Assembly: GCF_003864255.1 (NCBI RefSeq)
Contig: NZ_QWEZ01000001.1
Location: 248,001-312,000, forward strand
Direction: 5' to 3'
Length of the DNA stretch: 64,000 bases
Source of the DNA: Aestuariirhabdus litorea
GTDB taxonomy: Bacteria; Pseudomonadota; Gammaproteobacteria; Pseudomonadales; Aestuariirhabdaceae
The position numbers were made by a program, and so were the translations under genes. Shown here one piece after another: positions 27,460 to 34,675 of this stretch (within the stretch, counting starts at the first letter, position 1; each line of letters opens with the position of its first letter). The notes under the pieces were generated by a model, which was not told the origin of the DNA, did no database searches, and saw only the letters and a program-made list of their open reading frames with translations.

Positions 27460-27969
27460 ATGACCCCACAACGCAGCGTAATACTGGTTGGCATGCCCGG
27501 CGCCGGCAAGAGCACCATCGGTGTGCAGCTGGCCAAGGAGCTGGCGCTGGATTTTGTCGATACAGATCTGTTGATCCAGTTGCGTGAAGGCAAACCCCTG
27601 CAGGATATCCTGGACGAGAGCGGCTACCTGCAGCTGCGCTACATCGAGGAGCAGACCCTGCTCGAGTCCTTCCTGCCCAATCACGTCATCGCCACCGGCG
27701 GCAGCGCGGTCTATGGCCAGGAGGGGATGCGCCACCTGCGCGGCTTTGGCCCCATTGTCTTCCTCGACGCCTCCCTGGCCGAGCTCAAGCGCCGTATTCG
27801 CAACTACGAAACCCGCGGCATCGCCCGCCGCCCGGACCAGAGCTTCGAGGAGCTGTTTGCCGAGCGCCGCACCCTCTACCAGCAGGTGGCCGACATCACC
27901 ATCGAGTGCGATGGCAAGGACCAGCAACAGATTCTGGATGAGGTCTGCGTCGCCCTGGCGGCTGTGTAG
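27460..27969 (+). CDS. shikimate kinase-like protein
   Basis: 169 residues. P-loop GMPGAGKS lies at 11-18, followed by DFVDTDLLIQ with the shikimate-binding/Mg aspartates, IATGGSAVY corresponding to the GGG loop, and the lid region RPDQSFEELFAERRTLYQQVADITIE. This is the AroK/AroL fold, phosphorylating shikimate at O3. The usual GGGxV appears as GGSAV, and the normal aroK partner aroB is not here, so it may be a paralogue of the housekeeping AroK. It marks the left boundary of the accessory island. Confidence 0.82.
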   Translation: MTPQRSVILVGMPGAGKSTIGVQLAKELALDFVDTDLLIQLREGKPLQDILDESGYLQLRYIEEQTLLESFLPNHVIATGGSAVYGQEGMRHLRGFGPIVFLDASLAELKRRIRNYETRGIARRPDQSFEELFAERRTLYQQVADITIECDGKDQQQILDEVCVALAAV

Positions 27970-27976
27970 GGGGGCG

Positions 27977-28170
27977 TTCTTGAGCGCCGGTGGCTCCACC
28001 AGGCCGGCCTTCGGCTACGCGCTTCACTGCTTCTGCTATCGGGCGTCCATGGCCTCCGCGGCATTCGAACACCCTGTTCATCATCCCTTCCTTCGGGCCT
28101 CTTGCGATAGCGAAAGAAGCGCCTTACCGGCCTTGAGGGTGATGGGGGGTCACCTTATAAGGAGTGAACT
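27977..28170 (+). repeat. palindromic repeat element, copy A
   Basis: About 190 bases matching copy B (29575-29785) in the same orientation. Shared blocks are CCGGCCTTCGGCT near the left end (around 28002), CACTGCTTCYGCTATCGG (around 28027), CTTCGGG and CGATAGCG with its A-rich follow-up (around 28092-28112), and GAGGGTGATGGGGG (28134-28148). The left GCTTCTGCTATCG and right CGATAGCGAAAGAAGC arms can pair, so a transcript would form a long hairpin with a variable loop. No ORF is apparent. It starts just after the shikimate-kinase-like stop codon. Confidence 0.72.
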
Positions 28171-28469
28171 GGGTGAGGTCAATTAATGAGCGAATAACAG
28201 GGTCTGCGCTAGAAATTAAACAACTGATCAAGCAATATCAATGGATTACGGGCGCTGGGGGGCTGGGTACTGCGCAGGGGGTTTACGGCTATGAATTGGT
28301 TTTTTTCAGTTAAAAAATAACAGCCGAAACCAATTAGCCCAGTACACTCCAGATTTTGATTTCATTGGGCGGTTCTTGACCATTTCCCGGTAAATCGGAG
28401 CCAGCTCATTTGTCAGGTTTGCTCTTGCGGTTATGCAGGCGCTATCCATAAAAACGAAGAACTATAAAA
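28171..28469. other. AT-richer intergenic segment upstream of the EamA gene
   Basis: No coding sequence was seen. It contains a 9-bp inverted repeat, AATTGGTTT (28294-28302) and AAACCAATT (28327-28335), separated by 24 bases. GGTTATGCAGG near 28430 superficially resembles an integron core site but lacks partner arms. GC is clearly lower than in the flanking chromosome. Confidence 0.5.
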
Positions 28470-29429
28470 ATGGAAACAACCACTACTGAATTAAACCTTC
28501 AACCCTCTTCTCAGGTGTTGGCATTGCTCTCAGCTTGCGGAGCCGGGGTTATTTGGGGGACAGGAGCGCTGGTGGTTAATATTCTGGTCGCGCAGTATGG
28601 TTTTTCTCCTGGGAATGTATCTTTCTGGCGTTTTGTCATTGGTGCTGTTGTTTTAGTTGGATTTTTTTGGAACAGGATTTTATGGAGCAGGATCGCACCA
28701 TTGCTGCCACTTATAATTCTTGCTGGTGCCGCAATGGCAGGCTACGTGTTGTTATGGTTTCTTGGTATTGAGCAAATGGGGGCTGCAGTGCCAACGCTGA
28801 TAGCCCTCTGTATGCCACCCGTCATAGTGACAGTTATTTCAATCATCCGTGGACAAGAAAGAGCAGATCTACAACTCTTTCTGGTGCTGCTGGGGGCGCT
28901 GTCGGGTACCGTACTAATCACCACTCGTAATGCCGATAGCGCTGAACACTTTGGTTCGGGGAGTATGGTGTTGGGTGTCACCTTTTCACTAGGGTCAGCA
29001 TTTTTATACGCTGGATTTTCCATGGTTAATGGGCGTATCTCAAAAGCGCTTGGGGCCGGCCCGACAGCCGCCTGTTTGACCCTAGTGGCGGCCGTCATCA
29101 TGAGCTTGAATTTTCTGTTCAGTCCATTCATATGGCCAACAGAAATTCCACCCCAAGCATGGTTTTTATATCTCGGCATTGTAACTGCGGCTCTGGCGCT
29201 ACTGGCTTTCAGTTGGGGCGCTGTACGTTTAAGCCCTACGGCGCTTACTGTAGCGACTCTGTTAGAGCCGCTTACGGCGGTAATACTTTCAGCGCTTTTG
29301 CTTGGGCAGCACTTTGGCGGATTGCAGTGGGTAGGGAGTATTCTCCTTCTGTTTAGTATCTGGCTGCTCGGGCGTAGAGTCTCAGCAAACAATGAGCAAG
29401 GGGCCTTGGCTAAAGGTTGTAATGGCTAA
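28470..29429 (+). CDS. EamA/DMT superfamily transporter
   Basis: 319 residues with ten hydrophobic segments in two EamA repeats (first from about residue 18, second from about 170). LSACGAGVIWGTGALVVNIL opens the first repeat. FLGIEQMGAAVPTLIALCMPPVIV and TVATLLEPLTAVILSALLLGQHFGGLQWVGSILL are the paired, strongly typical DMT motifs. It probably exports a small metabolite or amino acid; the substrate cannot be assigned. Codon use and GC are lower than in flanking chromosomal genes, and it is bracketed by copies A and B of a palindromic repeat, so it is probably acquired DNA. Confidence 0.92.
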   Translation: METTTTELNLQPSSQVLALLSACGAGVIWGTGALVVNILVAQYGFSPGNVSFWRFVIGAVVLVGFFWNRILWSRIAPLLPLIILAGAAMAGYVLLWFLGIEQMGAAVPTLIALCMPPVIVTVISIIRGQERADLQLFLVLLGALSGTVLITTRNADSAEHFGSGSMVLGVTFSLGSAFLYAGFSMVNGRISKALGAGPTAACLTLVAAVIMSLNFLFSPFIWPTEIPPQAWFLYLGIVTAALALLAFSWGAVRLSPTALTVATLLEPLTAVILSALLLGQHFGGLQWVGSILLLFSIWLLGRRVSANNEQGALAKGCNG

Positions 29430-29480
29430 TGGCTTTTTGCCTGGAATGGGGGGGTGAAGTTCCGGCGTAGGGGAGCATCG

Positions 29481-29580
29481 TAGGAGCGCCTTTGGCGCGG
29501 GGGTTCTGCCTTGCGGCAGGGGGGGGTGTCGGGAAGCACCCCGACAGGTGCCTTAAGGGGGCGACCACCGCCCCCTTAAG
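29481..29580. repeat. cluster of consecutive hairpins
   Basis: Several perfect short palindromes follow each other. AGCGCC-TTT-GGCGC lies near 29485-29500 and GCC/GGC near 29507-29519. TGTCGGG (29527-29533) pairs with CCCGACA (29540-29546). CTTAAGGGGGCG (29552-29563) pairs with CGCCCCCTTAAG (29569-29580) around loop ACCAC. None has a T tract, so they are not simple terminators. They abut repeat copy B directly. Confidence 0.75.
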
Positions 29581-29785
29581 AATCCCCGGCGGACCCCACC
29601 AATCCGGCCTTCGGCTGCGCGCGTCACTGCTTCCGCTATCGGCCGTTCCGAGCGGGCCTCCTGCCCGCACGGAACGGCTCGACATCCCTGTCTCGCCCCT
29701 TCGGGTCTGTTTCGATAGCGCAAGCAGCTCCTTGCCGGCTTGGAGGGTGATGGGGGAAGCCACCTTCCGGTATAGCCTCTGGGTT
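29575..29785 (+). repeat. palindromic repeat element, copy B
   Basis: Second copy of the element at 27977-28170, same orientation, with the EamA gene between them. The arms CTGCTTCCGCTATCG (about 29628-29642) and CGATAGCGCAAGCAG (about 29712-29726) pair at 14 of 15 positions. The loop contains its own nested palindrome, CCGTTCCGAGCGGGC...CGGAACGG. Outer blocks CCGGCC and GCCGGC also pair. The flanks and stem are more conserved between copies than the loop, as expected for a structured element. Confidence 0.72.
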
Positions 29786-30094
29786 ACTGCCTGACGGGAA
29801 TGGCTGGGAGGCGATAACACACAACGCGCATGCACCCTTTATAAACTGTCTGCACAATAAGGCGTTGACTATCAGTGGGCTATAAATTATTCGGCAGAGA
29901 TGTAGCGCTCAAGCAGCGGGGATACACTCACGGGTCGCTTTTCGCATAGCCAGTTCTGTGAAAAAGAACACTTTTCTCATATAAGTCAAAGAGGTACGCT
30001 GGTTCCAATCAATCCACTCCCCGGGGAAAAGTGCTCGGGTCGTTATACAAATGTTAGCATATTCAAACAATAGAAACTGATGTAGAGGTGATTT
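29786..30094. other. gene-free left boundary of the cassette region
   Basis: No credible ORF was found. A GTTATAC heptamer at 30042-30048, preceded by GTGCTCGGGTC and followed eleven bases later by TGTTAGCATA, resembles the 3' end of the attC site at 31307-31313 and its flank. A matching left arm within a normal attC length was not found, so a cassette boundary here is only possible. SD GAGGTG precedes the gene at 30095. Confidence 0.35.
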
Positions 30095-31198
30095 ATGTCT
30101 GAAAATGAGAAAAAACAAGAAGTCGGCACCTATATTACCGGCGTGGCTATATTTGGTGGTATTGGCATATGGCTTGGGGGGTGGATTGGTTTTGCTATTG
30201 GTGCTGGAATAGCTATATGGGCTATTAGCTCCAATGCCGATAAAGAAGCTAAAAAGAAATCACTACCTTCAAAAACAACTAATAGTGATAATGCACACGA
30301 AAGTAGCTTAGCCCTTGATAAGGATCCTGTTACATCTATTGGGTTTAATTATTCCTTTTATTCTAAATTAGTACCAGAGCTATTGGCTGTGTGCATTGCC
30401 GCAGATGGAAGCGTCGAGGAAAATGAAGTAGAAACTGCCACATTGTTGATTGAAAATGATGAATATATAAAAGATAAACAAGGTGCTCTTGAATCGCTCA
30501 GTGTAAATATAGAAATGCTTTCAGCTGCCATTGAGAAATCGAAGGCTGTTTTCAAATTAAAGGTTTCACCCATAATCCATCAAGCAATAAACATCAGCGA
30601 CTCATTAGAAAAAGACAGGATAAAAATTCTTCTTGATAGCTTAATTGAAGCTGTTCAAAGTGGCGACAAAGCACAAACATTGGAAATGGCAGAAAAAATA
30701 AAGGAAAAACTAAATGCTCAACCTGAAATCACAAAGCAAGATGCTGCAGAAGAGTATATTCGCAAAAGTGGCGACCAAGAAGCCATTAGCATGCTAAACA
30801 AGATAAAGAGCAATCCGAGACAGTACGGGGAAAATCTTAAGCAAGCAGCCAAGGGTAATTCTGTAATGAAAACTGCACTTGGTGTTTTTACTGGAATGAT
30901 AGCTTCGAATTTGGTCATGGGAGCTATAAACCAATACCAAATTGAACAAGCTTTGGCTAACTTTAACGCAGAATTAGAAAATATTGGAGGAATCGATAAT
31001 TTAGGCTTAGGCGAATATGATTCAACTCTTACTGACGCATCAGCGATTAATTTTTCAGAAGCAAGTCTTTCGGAAAATTACGAAGAAGAATATGCATCTA
31101 CTGATGACGTAGATGAAGATGTTGATACTGATGAAGATATGGATATTGCTATGGACACAGATGATAGTGGCGACTTTTTTTCTGATTTGTTTTCATGA
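30095..31198 (+). CDS. TerB-like membrane protein in an integron cassette
   Basis: 367 residues of unknown function. N-terminal hydrophobic stretch IFGGIGIWLGGWIGFAIGAGIAIWAI (about residues 19-45) forms one or two membrane segments. A TerB-like helical domain follows at about 85-205: YSKLVPELLAVCIAADGSVEENEVETATLLI has the DGSVEENE acidic loop typical of TerB/DjlA-type domains. A second hydrophobic patch near 265-285 (ALGVFTGMIASNLVMGA) and a very acidic tail (about 335-367, dense in Asp/Glu) complete it. AT-rich codon use differs sharply from the chromosome. An attC site starts 43 bases after the stop, making this the gene of an integron cassette. Confidence 0.75.
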   Translation: MSENEKKQEVGTYITGVAIFGGIGIWLGGWIGFAIGAGIAIWAISSNADKEAKKKSLPSKTTNSDNAHESSLALDKDPVTSIGFNYSFYSKLVPELLAVCIAADGSVEENEVETATLLIENDEYIKDKQGALESLSVNIEMLSAAIEKSKAVFKLKVSPIIHQAINISDSLEKDRIKILLDSLIEAVQSGDKAQTLEMAEKIKEKLNAQPEITKQDAAEEYIRKSGDQEAISMLNKIKSNPRQYGENLKQAAKGNSVMKTALGVFTGMIASNLVMGAINQYQIEQALANFNAELENIGGIDNLGLGEYDSTLTDASAINFSEASLSENYEEEYASTDDVDEDVDTDEDMDIAMDTDDSGDFFSDLFS

Positions 31199-31241
31199 AT
31201 ATGTATAAGTTCGTTTCTGTGCCATATGGTCATGAGCATAA

Positions 31242-31313
31242 TGCTAACAAGGCGCTTCACCTGACCGCTTTTCCGCTGCGCTTCAAAGCGGCCGGTGAGC
31301 TTGGTCGTTAGGT
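31242..31313 (+). other. integron attC recombination site
   Basis: A 72-base attC. R'' box TGCTAAC (31242-31248) and R' box GTTAGGT (31307-31313) fit the RYYYAAC/GTTRRRY cores at 5/7 and 7/7. Internal arms pair: GCTTCACC (31254-31261) with GGTGAGC (31294-31300), leaving one extrahelical T, and CCGCTTT (31265-31271) with AAAGCGG (31285-31291) perfectly, with unpaired TGA opposite CC between them and a 13-base loop. Imperfect stem, extrahelical bases and terminal cores are diagnostic. Recombination would fall between G and TTAGGT. Confidence 0.88.
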
Positions 31314-31318
31314 GTGCA

Positions 31319-31582
31319 ATGGTTAGCATACAAAAACACAACCTAGAGTTATCAAAGCAAGCGTATGCGGCTGTCGCTCACAAGCTTAAAGAAGGTGCTC
31401 GCATAGAAATATACGGGTACATTTACAAATTCAATGAATGGGGACTTGGAGTCGAAGCGCTAGTCGATTTTTTGGTTGAGGAAGACGTTGAGCTATCCTC
31501 AACAGAAATGGAAGCTCTATCGAAAGCTGCTGAATCGATGCAAATAGATAGGGGTATTAAATCAATCAAGGTTTCCGGATGA
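31319..31582 (+). CDS. small protein resembling MafI-type immunity proteins
   Basis: 87 residues from ATG 31319, only 11 bases inside the predicted cassette boundary, a usual spacing for cassette genes. The sequence is helical: an N-terminal helix to about residue 25, then GARIEIYGYIYKFNEWGLGVEALVDFLVEEDVELSSTEMEALSKAAESMQID. The pattern of a WGLG(V/L)E turn followed by an acidic loop and SxxE(M/F)E helix is reminiscent of small MafI-like immunity proteins that protect against polymorphic toxins. No toxin gene is adjacent. The resemblance is by eye and tentative; a stand-alone orphan immunity cassette would be consistent with known integron cargo. Confidence 0.6.
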   Translation: MVSIQKHNLELSKQAYAAVAHKLKEGARIEIYGYIYKFNEWGLGVEALVDFLVEEDVELSSTEMEALSKAAESMQIDRGIKSIKVSG

Positions 31583-31671
31583 TGAAATAAAGTTACTTGC
31601 CTGATAAATCAGTTAAATCTATGTATGAGGAGTCTTTACTTTAGTTGAGGTTTTATAGATCACAAGTTTTC

Positions 31672-32148
31672 ATGAAAAATATTTTTTTAATTACCTATAT
31701 AATAGTTCTATCTGCTTCACTACCAGGTTGTGCAGCAACTAACCCTTACAATGTCGTGGATGACAACTATTCGCTTCTTCATAATTGGATGAAAGAAAAA
31801 GATGAAGGGTTGATATCACTTTTCTTTAATCATTCAGATGATAATTTTCTCAATTGGGGTTTGTTTAAAGCGAGAAAAGATGTTGTTTTCAAGGTTCCAT
31901 CTGGTCATAGAGTTGTCATAGTTAATGTTATCTATGCCCCCAATGGGGTTTGGAGGATGGGTGGTCCATTTAACCTCCATGAAACTTTTGTTCGCATTAA
32001 TTTTAATGCTGAAAAAGGCAAGAGTTATCAGCCTAATGCAACCATCCAAAATGGCATCGCAGAAGTTTGGGTCGAAGAGGTTGGCGGTAAAATAGTCAGT
32101 GATGTGGTCTCCGCTAAGATTATTCCTTATGTTGAAAAATACAAATGA
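31672..32148 (+). CDS. hypothetical lipoprotein
   Basis: 158 residues with a lipoprotein signal peptide (IFLITYIIVLSASLPGC; Cys in LPGC at about residue 20). The mature domain is beta-rich with KDVVFKVPSGHRVVIVNVIYAPNGVWRMGGPFNLHETFVRINFNAEKGKSYQ and an end typical of a small beta-sandwich. I do not recognise the family. The ATG at 31672 was chosen because the signal peptide begins there; a TTG nine codons upstream is less likely. There is no SD of note. AT-rich codon use matches the preceding cassette ORFs. No attC was found between it and 31582, so it may share that cassette. Confidence 0.65.
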   Translation: MKNIFLITYIIVLSASLPGCAATNPYNVVDDNYSLLHNWMKEKDEGLISLFFNHSDDNFLNWGLFKARKDVVFKVPSGHRVVIVNVIYAPNGVWRMGGPFNLHETFVRINFNAEKGKSYQPNATIQNGIAEVWVEEVGGKIVSDVVSAKIIPYVEKYK

Positions 32149-32292
32149 AGGTTGCATAAATTATATTTATAATTAGTGCTTGCGCTGGTTGGTGAGGGAT
32201 GAGTATTAAAAATCATCTATGATAAGCGCTGATCCCAGCGGGCAGGTCCAACCCATCTCTAAAATTTGATCTAAGCATCGGGCGCTGCCGGG

Positions 32293-32418
32293 AAAAAACC
32301 CCTGAGCGGGGTTTTGGTTGCAGGCCCTGGCGGCTCAGAACTGGGTGGGGGCAGGTGCACCCCGACGCCATCGAGTTCGGCGGTGATCTTGATCTGGCAG
32401 CTTTGGCGGCTATTGTTC
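32293..32418 (-). pseudogene. decayed duplicate of the ferredoxin 3' end and terminator
   Basis: About 125 bases are roughly 90% identical by eye to 34310-34440. This includes the terminator (with a two-base loss in one arm), the whole spacer CAGGCCCTGGCGGCTCAGAA, and the last ~28 codons of the 2Fe-2S ferredoxin. Read on the minus strand it gives SCQIKITAELDGVGVHLP, against SCQIEVTAELDGVVVHLP in the intact gene. A one-base deletion near its 3' end then shifts the frame and removes the stop codon. Identity fades after about 32410. It is a non-functional remnant, and together with the intact copy forms direct repeats around 32.4-34.3 kb. Confidence 0.9.
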
Positions 32419-32697
32419 TGAGCACACCATCTGATATCTACCCTACCCTAAGCTATCCAGACACAATGTGCGCTGGTAATGTTAATAAATATCATAGGGT
32501 TAACTGCGGAGGCTAACAGGATACTGCGCCAGATCCTCCCGCTATATGCCACGGCTCTTTTTTACCGGACAAATAAAGCCGATGATCGATAAAAACCAAA
32601 TTAATTCAACCGGTTATCCGTCCATTGATTGTTGTCTGAAGAGGTCAAGACAAGCCGGGCCAGAATTAAGCTGCTATGGTTAAGAGGAGTCCATCCC
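32419..32697. other. gene-free segment after the ferredoxin remnant
   Basis: No ORF or clear regulatory element was seen. The stretch is of intermediate GC and contains short imperfect palindromes only. It ends at the SD (GAGGAG) of the GNAT gene. The preceding gap 32149-32292 likewise holds no gene and no attC-like arms. Confidence 0.5.
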
Positions 32698-33186
32698 ATG
32701 CAGATACGCGAAGCTACTGAAGCAGATTACGAAAAGATCTGGCCCATCTTTCATGAGGTCGCTTCGGCCGGTGAAACATACGCCTATCCTCGCGAAGTAA
32801 CAAAAAACGAAGGGAAAAAGCTATGGATGGAGTTGCCGCGCAAAACCTATGTGGTAGAAAACAATGAAGGAATACTAGGGACCTACTACATCAAAACAAA
32901 TCAAGCTGGGCCGGGTAGTCATGTATGCAACTGTGGCTACATGGTTGCGTCCTCTTCTAGAGGGCAAGGTATCGCTACCGTCATGTGCGAGCATTCTCAA
33001 AAAATGGCAGTTGAGCTTGGCTATGAAGCAATGCAATTCAACTTCGTGGCCTCAACCAATGAAGGGGCTGTGCGCCTATGGCAAAAGCTCGGCTTTGGAA
33101 TCGTAGGGCGGTTGCCACAGGCGTTTAAGCATCCGTCGAGAGGCTATGTTGATGCGCTGATCATGTATAAATGGCTCAAAACATAA
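32698..33186 (+). CDS. GNAT family N-acetyltransferase
   Basis: 162 residues from ATG 32698 (GAGGAG eight to ten bases upstream). IREATEADYEKIWPIFHEV opens a typical GNAT; the acetyl-CoA-binding loop is ASSSRGQGIATVMCEHSQ, matching the R/QxxGxG/A consensus. NFVASTNEGAVRLWQKLGFGIVGRLPQAF is the standard C-terminal motif. It is closest in style to YhhY/L-amino-acid or PhnO-type acetyltransferases; the substrate is unknown. GC is lower than chromosomal neighbours. It is the first of three genes between the ferredoxin direct repeats. Confidence 0.9.
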   Translation: MQIREATEADYEKIWPIFHEVASAGETYAYPREVTKNEGKKLWMELPRKTYVVENNEGILGTYYIKTNQAGPGSHVCNCGYMVASSSRGQGIATVMCEHSQKMAVELGYEAMQFNFVASTNEGAVRLWQKLGFGIVGRLPQAFKHPSRGYVDALIMYKWLKT

Positions 33187-33298
33187 CAGGGTGCTCGCGT
33201 CGTTCGTCATTTTTCTCCTCACTGAGACCCACAGCTTAGCTGGCAGCCCCATAGCATGGCGTAAGCGTTTAAAAAAACTCAGGTATAGGGAAACCATT

Positions 33299-33802
33299 AT
33301 GAAAAAAATTAGAATTTTAGTTTTAGGTCTACTTGCTGCTTCAGGTTGGGGAGCAGTTGCTTCAGAAAAAACACCGGAAGCGTCTCATGGGATTGAATAT
33401 CCTAGTGGTTGGCAGAACTGGTCAACAATCGCCGTATCTCATAGAACAGATAACAACACGTTAAGGGTTATACTCGGAAATGAAATTGCAGTAAAAGCCG
33501 CTCGCTCTGGAAAAGTTAATCCATGGCCGGAGGGTTCAATCCTGGGTAAAGTGGTTTGGAAAGATACCGAATTAGAAAACTGGAAAACAGCAATTGCACC
33601 TGGAGATTTTGTTCATGCTGAATTCATGTTCAAAGACTCAAACAAGTATTCCAAAACTTATGGTTGGGGATGGGCGCGTTGGGTTGGTCTTGAGCAGGAG
33701 CCGTTTAAAAACGGGGCTCAAGTATGCACCTCGTGCCACACGCCTGTAAAAGAGCGTGATTGGGTGTTCACTGATCCAGCACCCTTTCCAGCATTAAATT
33801 AA
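33299..33802 (+). CDS. cytochrome P460 family protein
   Basis: 167 residues from ATG 33299. A signal peptide (RILVLGLLAASGWGAVA) directs it to the periplasm. The body shows TLRVILGNEIAVKAARSGKVNPWPEGSILGKVVWK, the conserved central segment of cytochrome P460, and YGWGWARWVG. A single heme-c motif, CTSCH (Cys143-His147), lies near the C-terminus. Nitrosomonas cytochrome P460 oxidises hydroxylamine to N2O using a Lys-heme cross-link; the lysine in AVKAARSGK is the obvious candidate here. Substrate specificity in a non-nitrifier is uncertain. It lies between the ferredoxin direct repeats and is probably acquired. Confidence 0.88.
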   Translation: MKKIRILVLGLLAASGWGAVASEKTPEASHGIEYPSGWQNWSTIAVSHRTDNNTLRVILGNEIAVKAARSGKVNPWPEGSILGKVVWKDTELENWKTAIAPGDFVHAEFMFKDSNKYSKTYGWGWARWVGLEQEPFKNGAQVCTSCHTPVKERDWVFTDPAPFPALN

Positions 33803-33850
33803 GCTAACCAGTGGCCGCAGAACCATGCGATTTTGCCAGGAAGATAAGCC

Positions 33851-34267
33851 ATGAACTCACCAACCGTCATTGCATTGTTAGGGTTTATTGGGTGGAGCCT
33901 CTTCTTACTCGTACTTATGGAGTCCATACGATCAAAGATGGTGCTTGCCAAAGAGATAGCTCCAAACGGCTTTAATCCAGAAAACTCCAATCTGTCGCCG
34001 TTTATGCAAAGGTTGGCTCGCGCGCATGCCAACTGCATCGAAGGGCTACCTGTCTTTGGGGGGCTGCTGCTTGTAGCGGTGGTTACCTCCAATACTTCCA
34101 TTACAGATCCACTTGCTTATGTCTTCCTGGGCGCAAGAATAGCCCAGTCTTTAATTCATCTTGCCTCACTCAGCCCCTTGGCGGTCACGCTGAGGTTCAG
34201 TACTTTTGCCGTTCAAATGGGTATCGGTGTGTATTGGTGCTACACACTGTTTGAGGCATTGGTCTGA
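33851..34267 (+). CDS. MAPEG family membrane protein
   Basis: 138 residues with four hydrophobic segments. LSPFMQRLARAHANCIEGLPVFGGLLLVAVV is the family signature, including the RAHxNxxE motif in transmembrane helix 2. YVFLGARIAQSLIHLAS forms the third segment. MAPEG proteins include glutathione-dependent transferases, peroxidases and leukotriene-synthesis relatives; bacterial members are mostly uncharacterised. It follows the P460 gene by 48 bases and ends just before the shared bidirectional terminator. It is the last gene of the segment between the two ferredoxin 3' copies. Confidence 0.88.
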   Translation: MNSPTVIALLGFIGWSLFLLVLMESIRSKMVLAKEIAPNGFNPENSNLSPFMQRLARAHANCIEGLPVFGGLLLVAVVTSNTSITDPLAYVFLGARIAQSLIHLASLSPLAVTLRFSTFAVQMGIGVYWCYTLFEALV

Positions 34268-34309
34268 GGGTAATCCAGCTTAACTAGCGGGGTGTGTGTC
34301 CCGACCAAC

Positions 34310-34335
34310 AAAAAACCCCGCCTGGGCGGGGTTTT
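34310..34335. terminator. bidirectional terminator of MAPEG and ferredoxin genes
   Basis: Six A precede CCCCGCC (34316-34322), which pairs with GGCGGGG (34325-34331) and is followed by TTTT. It suits both converging transcripts. Its degenerate twin lies at 32293-32315. Confidence 0.88.
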
Positions 34336-34354
34336 GGTTACAGGCCCTGGCGGC

Positions 34355-34675
34355 TCAGAACTGGGCGGCGGGCAGGTGCACCACGACGCCGTCGAGTTCG
34401 GCGGTGACCTCGATCTGGCAGCTCAGGCGGCTGCGCTCGTCAGCGCCGGGAATCGCCTCCAGCATCTCCTGCTCGCTGTCGCCGGCCTCACCGGTCTTGT
34501 CACTCCAGTCGGTATCGACAAAGCAGTGGCAGGTGGCGCAGGCACCGGCACCGCCGCACTCCCCGAGGATGCCGTCGATCATGTTGTCGACGGCGCCCTG
34601 CATAATGGTATTGCCCACCGGCACTTCGGCCTCGTATTCGTTACCCTCGGCGGTAATGTATCGTACTAACGGCAT
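34355..34675 (-). CDS. 2Fe-2S ferredoxin (putidaredoxin/adrenodoxin type)
   Basis: 106 residues. The cluster ligands are ECGGAGACATCHCF (Cys in CGGAGACATC) with the fourth cysteine in RSRLSCQIEVT, the arrangement of vertebrate-type/putidaredoxin ferredoxins. It would carry electrons from the reductase encoded 19 bases upstream to a monooxygenase such as a P450, none of which is in the window. SD GGGGAGAG precedes the ATG closely. The 3' end of this gene is duplicated as a remnant at 32.3 kb, so this locus was the target or source of the insertion event. Confidence 0.95.
   Translation of the reverse strand: MPLVRYITAEGNEYEAEVPVGNTIMQGAVDNMIDGILGECGGAGACATCHCFVDTDWSDKTGEAGDSEQEMLEAIPGADERSRLSCQIEVTAELDGVVVHLPAAQF

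Follow-up and report, generated by a model that had tools for sequence, protein, structure and literature searches.

Ferredoxin locus and direct repeat

The DNA analysed came from a gammaproteobacterial genome of 3.66 Mb (G000), in which it occupies bases 248001-312000 of contig C1. This stretch of 64,000 nucleotides is referred to as the window, and positions are given within it unless a contig or locus is named. An intact gene for a 2Fe-2S ferredoxin of 106 aa is located on the minus strand at 34355-34675 (Pfam Fer2, PF00111, E 1.5e-8). The protein is 87% identical in amino acid sequence to its orthologue in the congener G001, and the best named relatives are from Porticoccus and other Cellvibrionales/Pseudomonadales metagenome bins, with identities of up to 68%. 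Three genes on the plus strand lie next to its 3' end, encoding a GNAT acetyltransferase (32698-33186; PF00583, E 2.1e-12), a cytochrome P460 (33299-33802; PF16694, E 5.2e-35) and a MAPEG-family membrane protein (33851-34267; PF01124, E 6.4e-18). The GC content of this three-gene segment is ∼0.47, a composition unlike that of the host (∼0.65). An Rfam search of the window returned no matches.

Self-comparison returned a single strong direct pair, 32293-32411 and 34310-34432, with 89.4% identity over 123 columns (E ∼1e-38). When the repeat was used as the query against the whole 3.66 Mb, the second copy was recovered with an E value of 7.6e-40 and the next best match had an E value of only 0.48; the pair is therefore unique in the genome and not a chance similarity. 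Copy R (34310-34432, minus strand) was delimited by self-comparison and alignment and is intact. It contains the last 25 codons of the ferredoxin gene (codons 82-106, 75 coding bases), the stop codon and an intrinsic terminator with a stem of 10 pairs. Copy R' (32293-32411, minus strand) is a decayed remnant of the same 3' end and terminator, 89% identical to R. Alignment of the two copies gave 9 substitutions in 119 aligned sites and two gaps, one of a single base and the other, in the terminator stem, of 3 bases.

The initial annotation had described a direct repeat of ∼90% identity made from the ferredoxin 3' end, which agrees with these data, although it counted ∼28 ferredoxin codons in the repeat where there are 25 and the stop. 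The similarity is not confined to the terminator; the coding sequence is included as well, and the similarity stops exactly at the terminator T-run. The one-base deletion reported for the distal copy is present, but the loss in the stem is of three bases and not two, and the stop codon reported as lost is still there as a TGA, placed out of frame by the deletion. The three genes do lie between the copies but are not flush with them, with a gap of 286 bp between the remnant and the start of GNAT and another of 42 bp between the stop of MAPEG and the terminator.

Distribution of the three genes

Many genomes of the order have a single GNAT homologue, with ∼65-73% nucleotide identity, and P460 homologues were found in 32 of the 369 genomes sampled from the class. 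DNA searches of 391 genomes of the order did not return the three genes together. No GNAT or MAPEG homologue was located near P460 among the matches fetched from the 369 class genomes, nor at three further P460 loci, and the three-gene unit was not found in plasmid and phage collections, which gave single-gene or short matches or nothing. A conserved three-gene unit was rejected on these results from order, class, further P460 loci, plasmids and phages. The GNAT, P460 and MAPEG genes seem to have come together by chance rather than as a conserved functional unit, and for this reason no joint function is proposed.

Composite AT-rich island

The three-gene segment is the ferredoxin-side third of one composite island of 6.4 kb (∼27970-34309), which is absent from G001 and has a local GC mostly of 0.35-0.52. 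The other border of the island is formed by a shikimate-kinase-family gene (27460-27969, plus strand; PF01202, E 2.5e-33), the product of which is 89% identical in amino acid sequence to its G001 orthologue. The half of the island beyond the segment carries a second repeat system. Its modules, all on the plus strand, are an EamA transporter gene (28470-29429; PF00892, E 3.1e-24), a dispersed GC-rich repeat, A (29480-29766, with a degenerate copy at 27987-28156), a dispersed repeat, B (29870-30056), and directly downstream of B an AT-rich cargo of three ORFs of 367, 95 and 167 aa (30095-32148). Repeat A is present many times in G000, and in shorter copies in G001 and G002; repeat B has five copies in G000, with a common end sequence. 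The 95-aa ORF (31295-31579) matched NF033691 (E 8.2e-9) and resembles MafI family immunity proteins, with no evident toxin partner; no Pfam or PADLOC match was obtained for the 367-aa and 167-aa ORFs. The remnant R' sits at the border between modules of ∼47% and ∼37% GC.

The remaining copies of repeat B were located at L057 6910-7096, L059 7634-7737 and 9014-9127, and L056 11114-11274 (minus strand). All five copies end sharply at ...CGTTATA(C/A)AAATGTTA, and some contain the internal inverted repeat GAGCACTTTTC/GAAAAGTGCTC. Most are positioned directly upstream of AT-rich cargo ORFs that differ from copy to copy, and one is ∼0.5 kb from the ORF. Integron cassettes were considered, the intergenic stretches being read by eye, and rejected: repeat B ends in GTTA, but the bases that follow are off consensus. 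As a candidate integron site the repeat was also rejected on its DNA fold, which was no better than that of shuffled sequences (z 0.05), and the genome gave no integron integrase match above the TIGR02249 cut-off. Outside the window, repeat A was found at L056, L057, L058, L059 and L060-L063. It is apparently restricted to the genus and flanks several AT-rich islands, three of which have the order A, B, cargo, inverted A. Repeats A and B form the borders of an island at L056 6862-11060. Its genes encode an EcoRI-type methyltransferase, a GmrSD/HNH protein and an AAA_15/AAA_21 ATPase, and it is likely a restriction-modification or defence module. The second cargo gene beside repeat B at L059 encodes an AAA_15 ATPase.

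Empty site in a congener

Species were sampled at one genome each. In G001 the ferredoxin and shikimate-kinase-family genes are convergent with ∼105 bp between their stops, as against 6.4 kb here, and the window aligns collinearly with the G001 contig on both sides (35915-34359 on one, 27968-25369 and 25327-22440 on the other). The junction lacking the segment, which the initial annotation had proposed to look for in relatives, is thus present in G001 as an empty site with collinear flanks. This junction upholds insertion at the 3' end of a gene. For integrase-mediated insertion only the anatomy speaks, as the segment has no integrase and the duplication recurs at none of 81 other ferredoxin loci. 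The three genes, taken in the annotation for the whole insertion, were indeed inserted but make up only part of the composite island.

Gain of the 6.4 kb in the present genome fits best, since the cargo is foreign in composition and the repeat copies have diverged far less than four-fold sites between the congeners; loss in G001 is less likely. A GNAT gene near the G001 ferredoxin (L055 7125-7604) was considered as the donor arrangement and rejected because its identity is only 54% and the reductase gene stands between it and the ferredoxin gene. The same congener locus contains a direct repeat of ∼213 bp (L055 1-212 and 8079-8291, 88% identity, 8 kb apart) upstream of the ferredoxin reductase gene.

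Divergence of the two copies

R and R' differ by ∼0.08 substitutions per site, whereas four-fold sites of G000 and G001 gave p 0.40 (JC 0.57). As the divergence of the copies is far below that at four-fold sites, the duplication postdates the split from G001. G001 served as outgroup for polarising the differences within the alignable coding sequence, and these were counted by eye on the alignment. At the clearly polarised differences it is R' that has changed, with one TG to AA, two G to A and one T to G, and with a G lost or altered near the end; at one other site, in a poorly conserved codon, the G001 base is that of the remnant. Most of the remnant changes modify or disrupt the reading frame, which is as would be expected for a copy without function.

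The ratio of tail to body amino acid divergence between the G000 and G001 ferredoxins was compared with that of 75 other similar ferredoxin pairs. The value of 2.79 was equalled or exceeded by several of these pairs, and an imported ferredoxin tail was rejected because the ratio is not unusual. Import from a relative, which had been offered as a cause of the divergence, is accordingly not supported, the clear differences being derived in the remnant and the intact tail being unexceptional. The divergence is attributed to decay and not to distant import, given the derived state of the remnant, and with no sign of replacement in the intact tail import is not needed to account for the 10% difference.

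Recombination machinery and recurrence

Profile matches identified no recombinase among the segment gene products. In the genome as a whole only two XerC/XerD-like recombinases and one integrase-family frame of 141 aa were found, the latter elsewhere, on contig C2. The region of this phage integrase-family frame (C2:366493-366738), within L221 (C2:360001-374000), is AT-rich (∼0.37 GC). No match to a reverse transcriptase family was obtained in the genome. A second ferredoxin tail was found at 0 of 81 other ferredoxin loci; ferredoxin is therefore not a recurrent target, and a recurrent integration site was rejected. ComEC is encoded in the genome. ComEC alone is no proof of competence, since E. 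coli has it too.

Origin of the repeat

The data establish that the repeat exists, that G001 has an empty site, that the duplication is younger than the congener split and that the remnant has decayed. The preferred explanation, given a probability of about 0.5, is that DNA was captured by illegitimate, or homology-facilitated illegitimate, recombination at an intergenic site prone to insertion. Foreign DNA would have accumulated between the ferredoxin and shikimate-kinase-family genes after the split from the sequenced congener. In the simplest version the incoming DNA would have consisted of a ferredoxin gene followed by GNAT, P460 and MAPEG. Homologous recombination would have taken place on the reductase/ferredoxin side, and the far end of the incoming DNA would have been joined illegitimately within the resident ferredoxin gene at about codon 82, stranding the last 25 codons of the resident gene and its terminator as the remnant. 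The functional ferredoxin end would have stayed under selection and the stranded end would have decayed. Both the recombination route and which copy was the recipient's we infer from this arrangement.

Homology-facilitated illegitimate recombination would produce this arrangement in a single step. It has been documented in naturally transformable Acinetobacter, in Pseudomonas stutzeri and in pneumococcus, and illegitimate events are held responsible for much of the diversity in small segments (PMC2884548). The present locus resembles the small variable segments of that study in having a small foreign intergenic segment, no mobility gene, a direct repeat at the border and a relative with an empty site, and differs in the repeat, which here is 123 bp from a gene 3' end and there is mostly <30 bp. 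Against capture stands the end of the repeat exactly at the T-run, which a random junction does not predict. Differences on the intact side are few or none, so if the copies came from different strains the donor must have been almost identical to the recipient there. The expected donor, with the three genes behind its ferredoxin gene and no remnant, was not found in the order, class, plasmid and phage searches.

Site-specific integration is possible but unlikely. A tyrosine recombinase would have used an attachment site mimicking the ferredoxin 3' end and terminator, so that the gene end was restored; after later loss of the integrase, 2 kb of cargo would remain flanked by attL and attR. Direct repeats of the target gene 3' end are present at both borders, as in integrase islands, one copy restoring the gene and the other being a displaced fragment. 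An identity block of 123 bp in a protein gene is, however, long for an attachment site. A restored 3' end with a displaced fragment is the classical mark of islands in tRNA and tmRNA genes (PMC4383910), and the direct orientation of the two is likewise shared with these tyrosine-integrase islands and with SGI1 at trmE (PMC8409611). Unlike them, the present segment is only 2 kb and has no integrase, the one integrase-family frame being far off on C2, and there is no recurrence in the 81 ferredoxin loci. The recombinase, integron integrase, reverse transcriptase and recurrence results together weaken a decayed site-specific element. The young age of the copies and their origin in the same lineage would also fit duplication in place. 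Foreign DNA would by then have adjoined the ferredoxin gene, a stretch with the ferredoxin tail and its neighbouring DNA would have undergone tandem duplication, and the second copy would for the most part have been lost. Bacteria commonly acquire tandem duplications, for which transformation can be a driver (PMC3784515), but two events are required here, and the sequences beyond the remnant (32150-32292) and beyond the intact copy (34268-34309) do not match, by eye or in self-comparison, so that no trace of a second segment copy is seen; this route is considered less probable than site-specific integration.

Lower again in likelihood is a history in which one insertion-prone site received DNA twice, independently. 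GNAT-P460-MAPEG would have followed the ferredoxin gene in one strain and the B-repeat cargo (30095-32148) that of another, and the two would have been joined, the remnant being a ferredoxin end that travelled with the B-repeat piece. The position of the remnant at the ∼47%/∼37% GC module boundary favours such a history, as does the island itself, clearly a construct of several modules that differ in their repeats; decay, on the other hand, is enough to account for the divergence between the copies. The extent of the remnant, from the coding region to the last T of the terminator, prompted a further reading as a DNA copy of the ferredoxin mRNA 3' end, reverse-transcribed and inserted together with foreign DNA. 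This was rejected because no reverse transcriptase family was matched in the genome; the enzyme would have had to come and go, and next to no weight is given to it.

Significance

The ∼2 kb of foreign DNA beside the ferredoxin gene is the footprint of ordinary DNA acquisition and not a new system, and no long-standing question is opened by the duplicated ferredoxin tail. The repeat itself may be of less interest than the composite island, whose apparently genus-restricted repeats lie next to varied cargo that at another site of this genome includes likely restriction-modification genes. The locus provides a clean example of a gene border marking the capture of DNA, the gain being recent, one copy still intact, the other in decay and the site empty in a congener.
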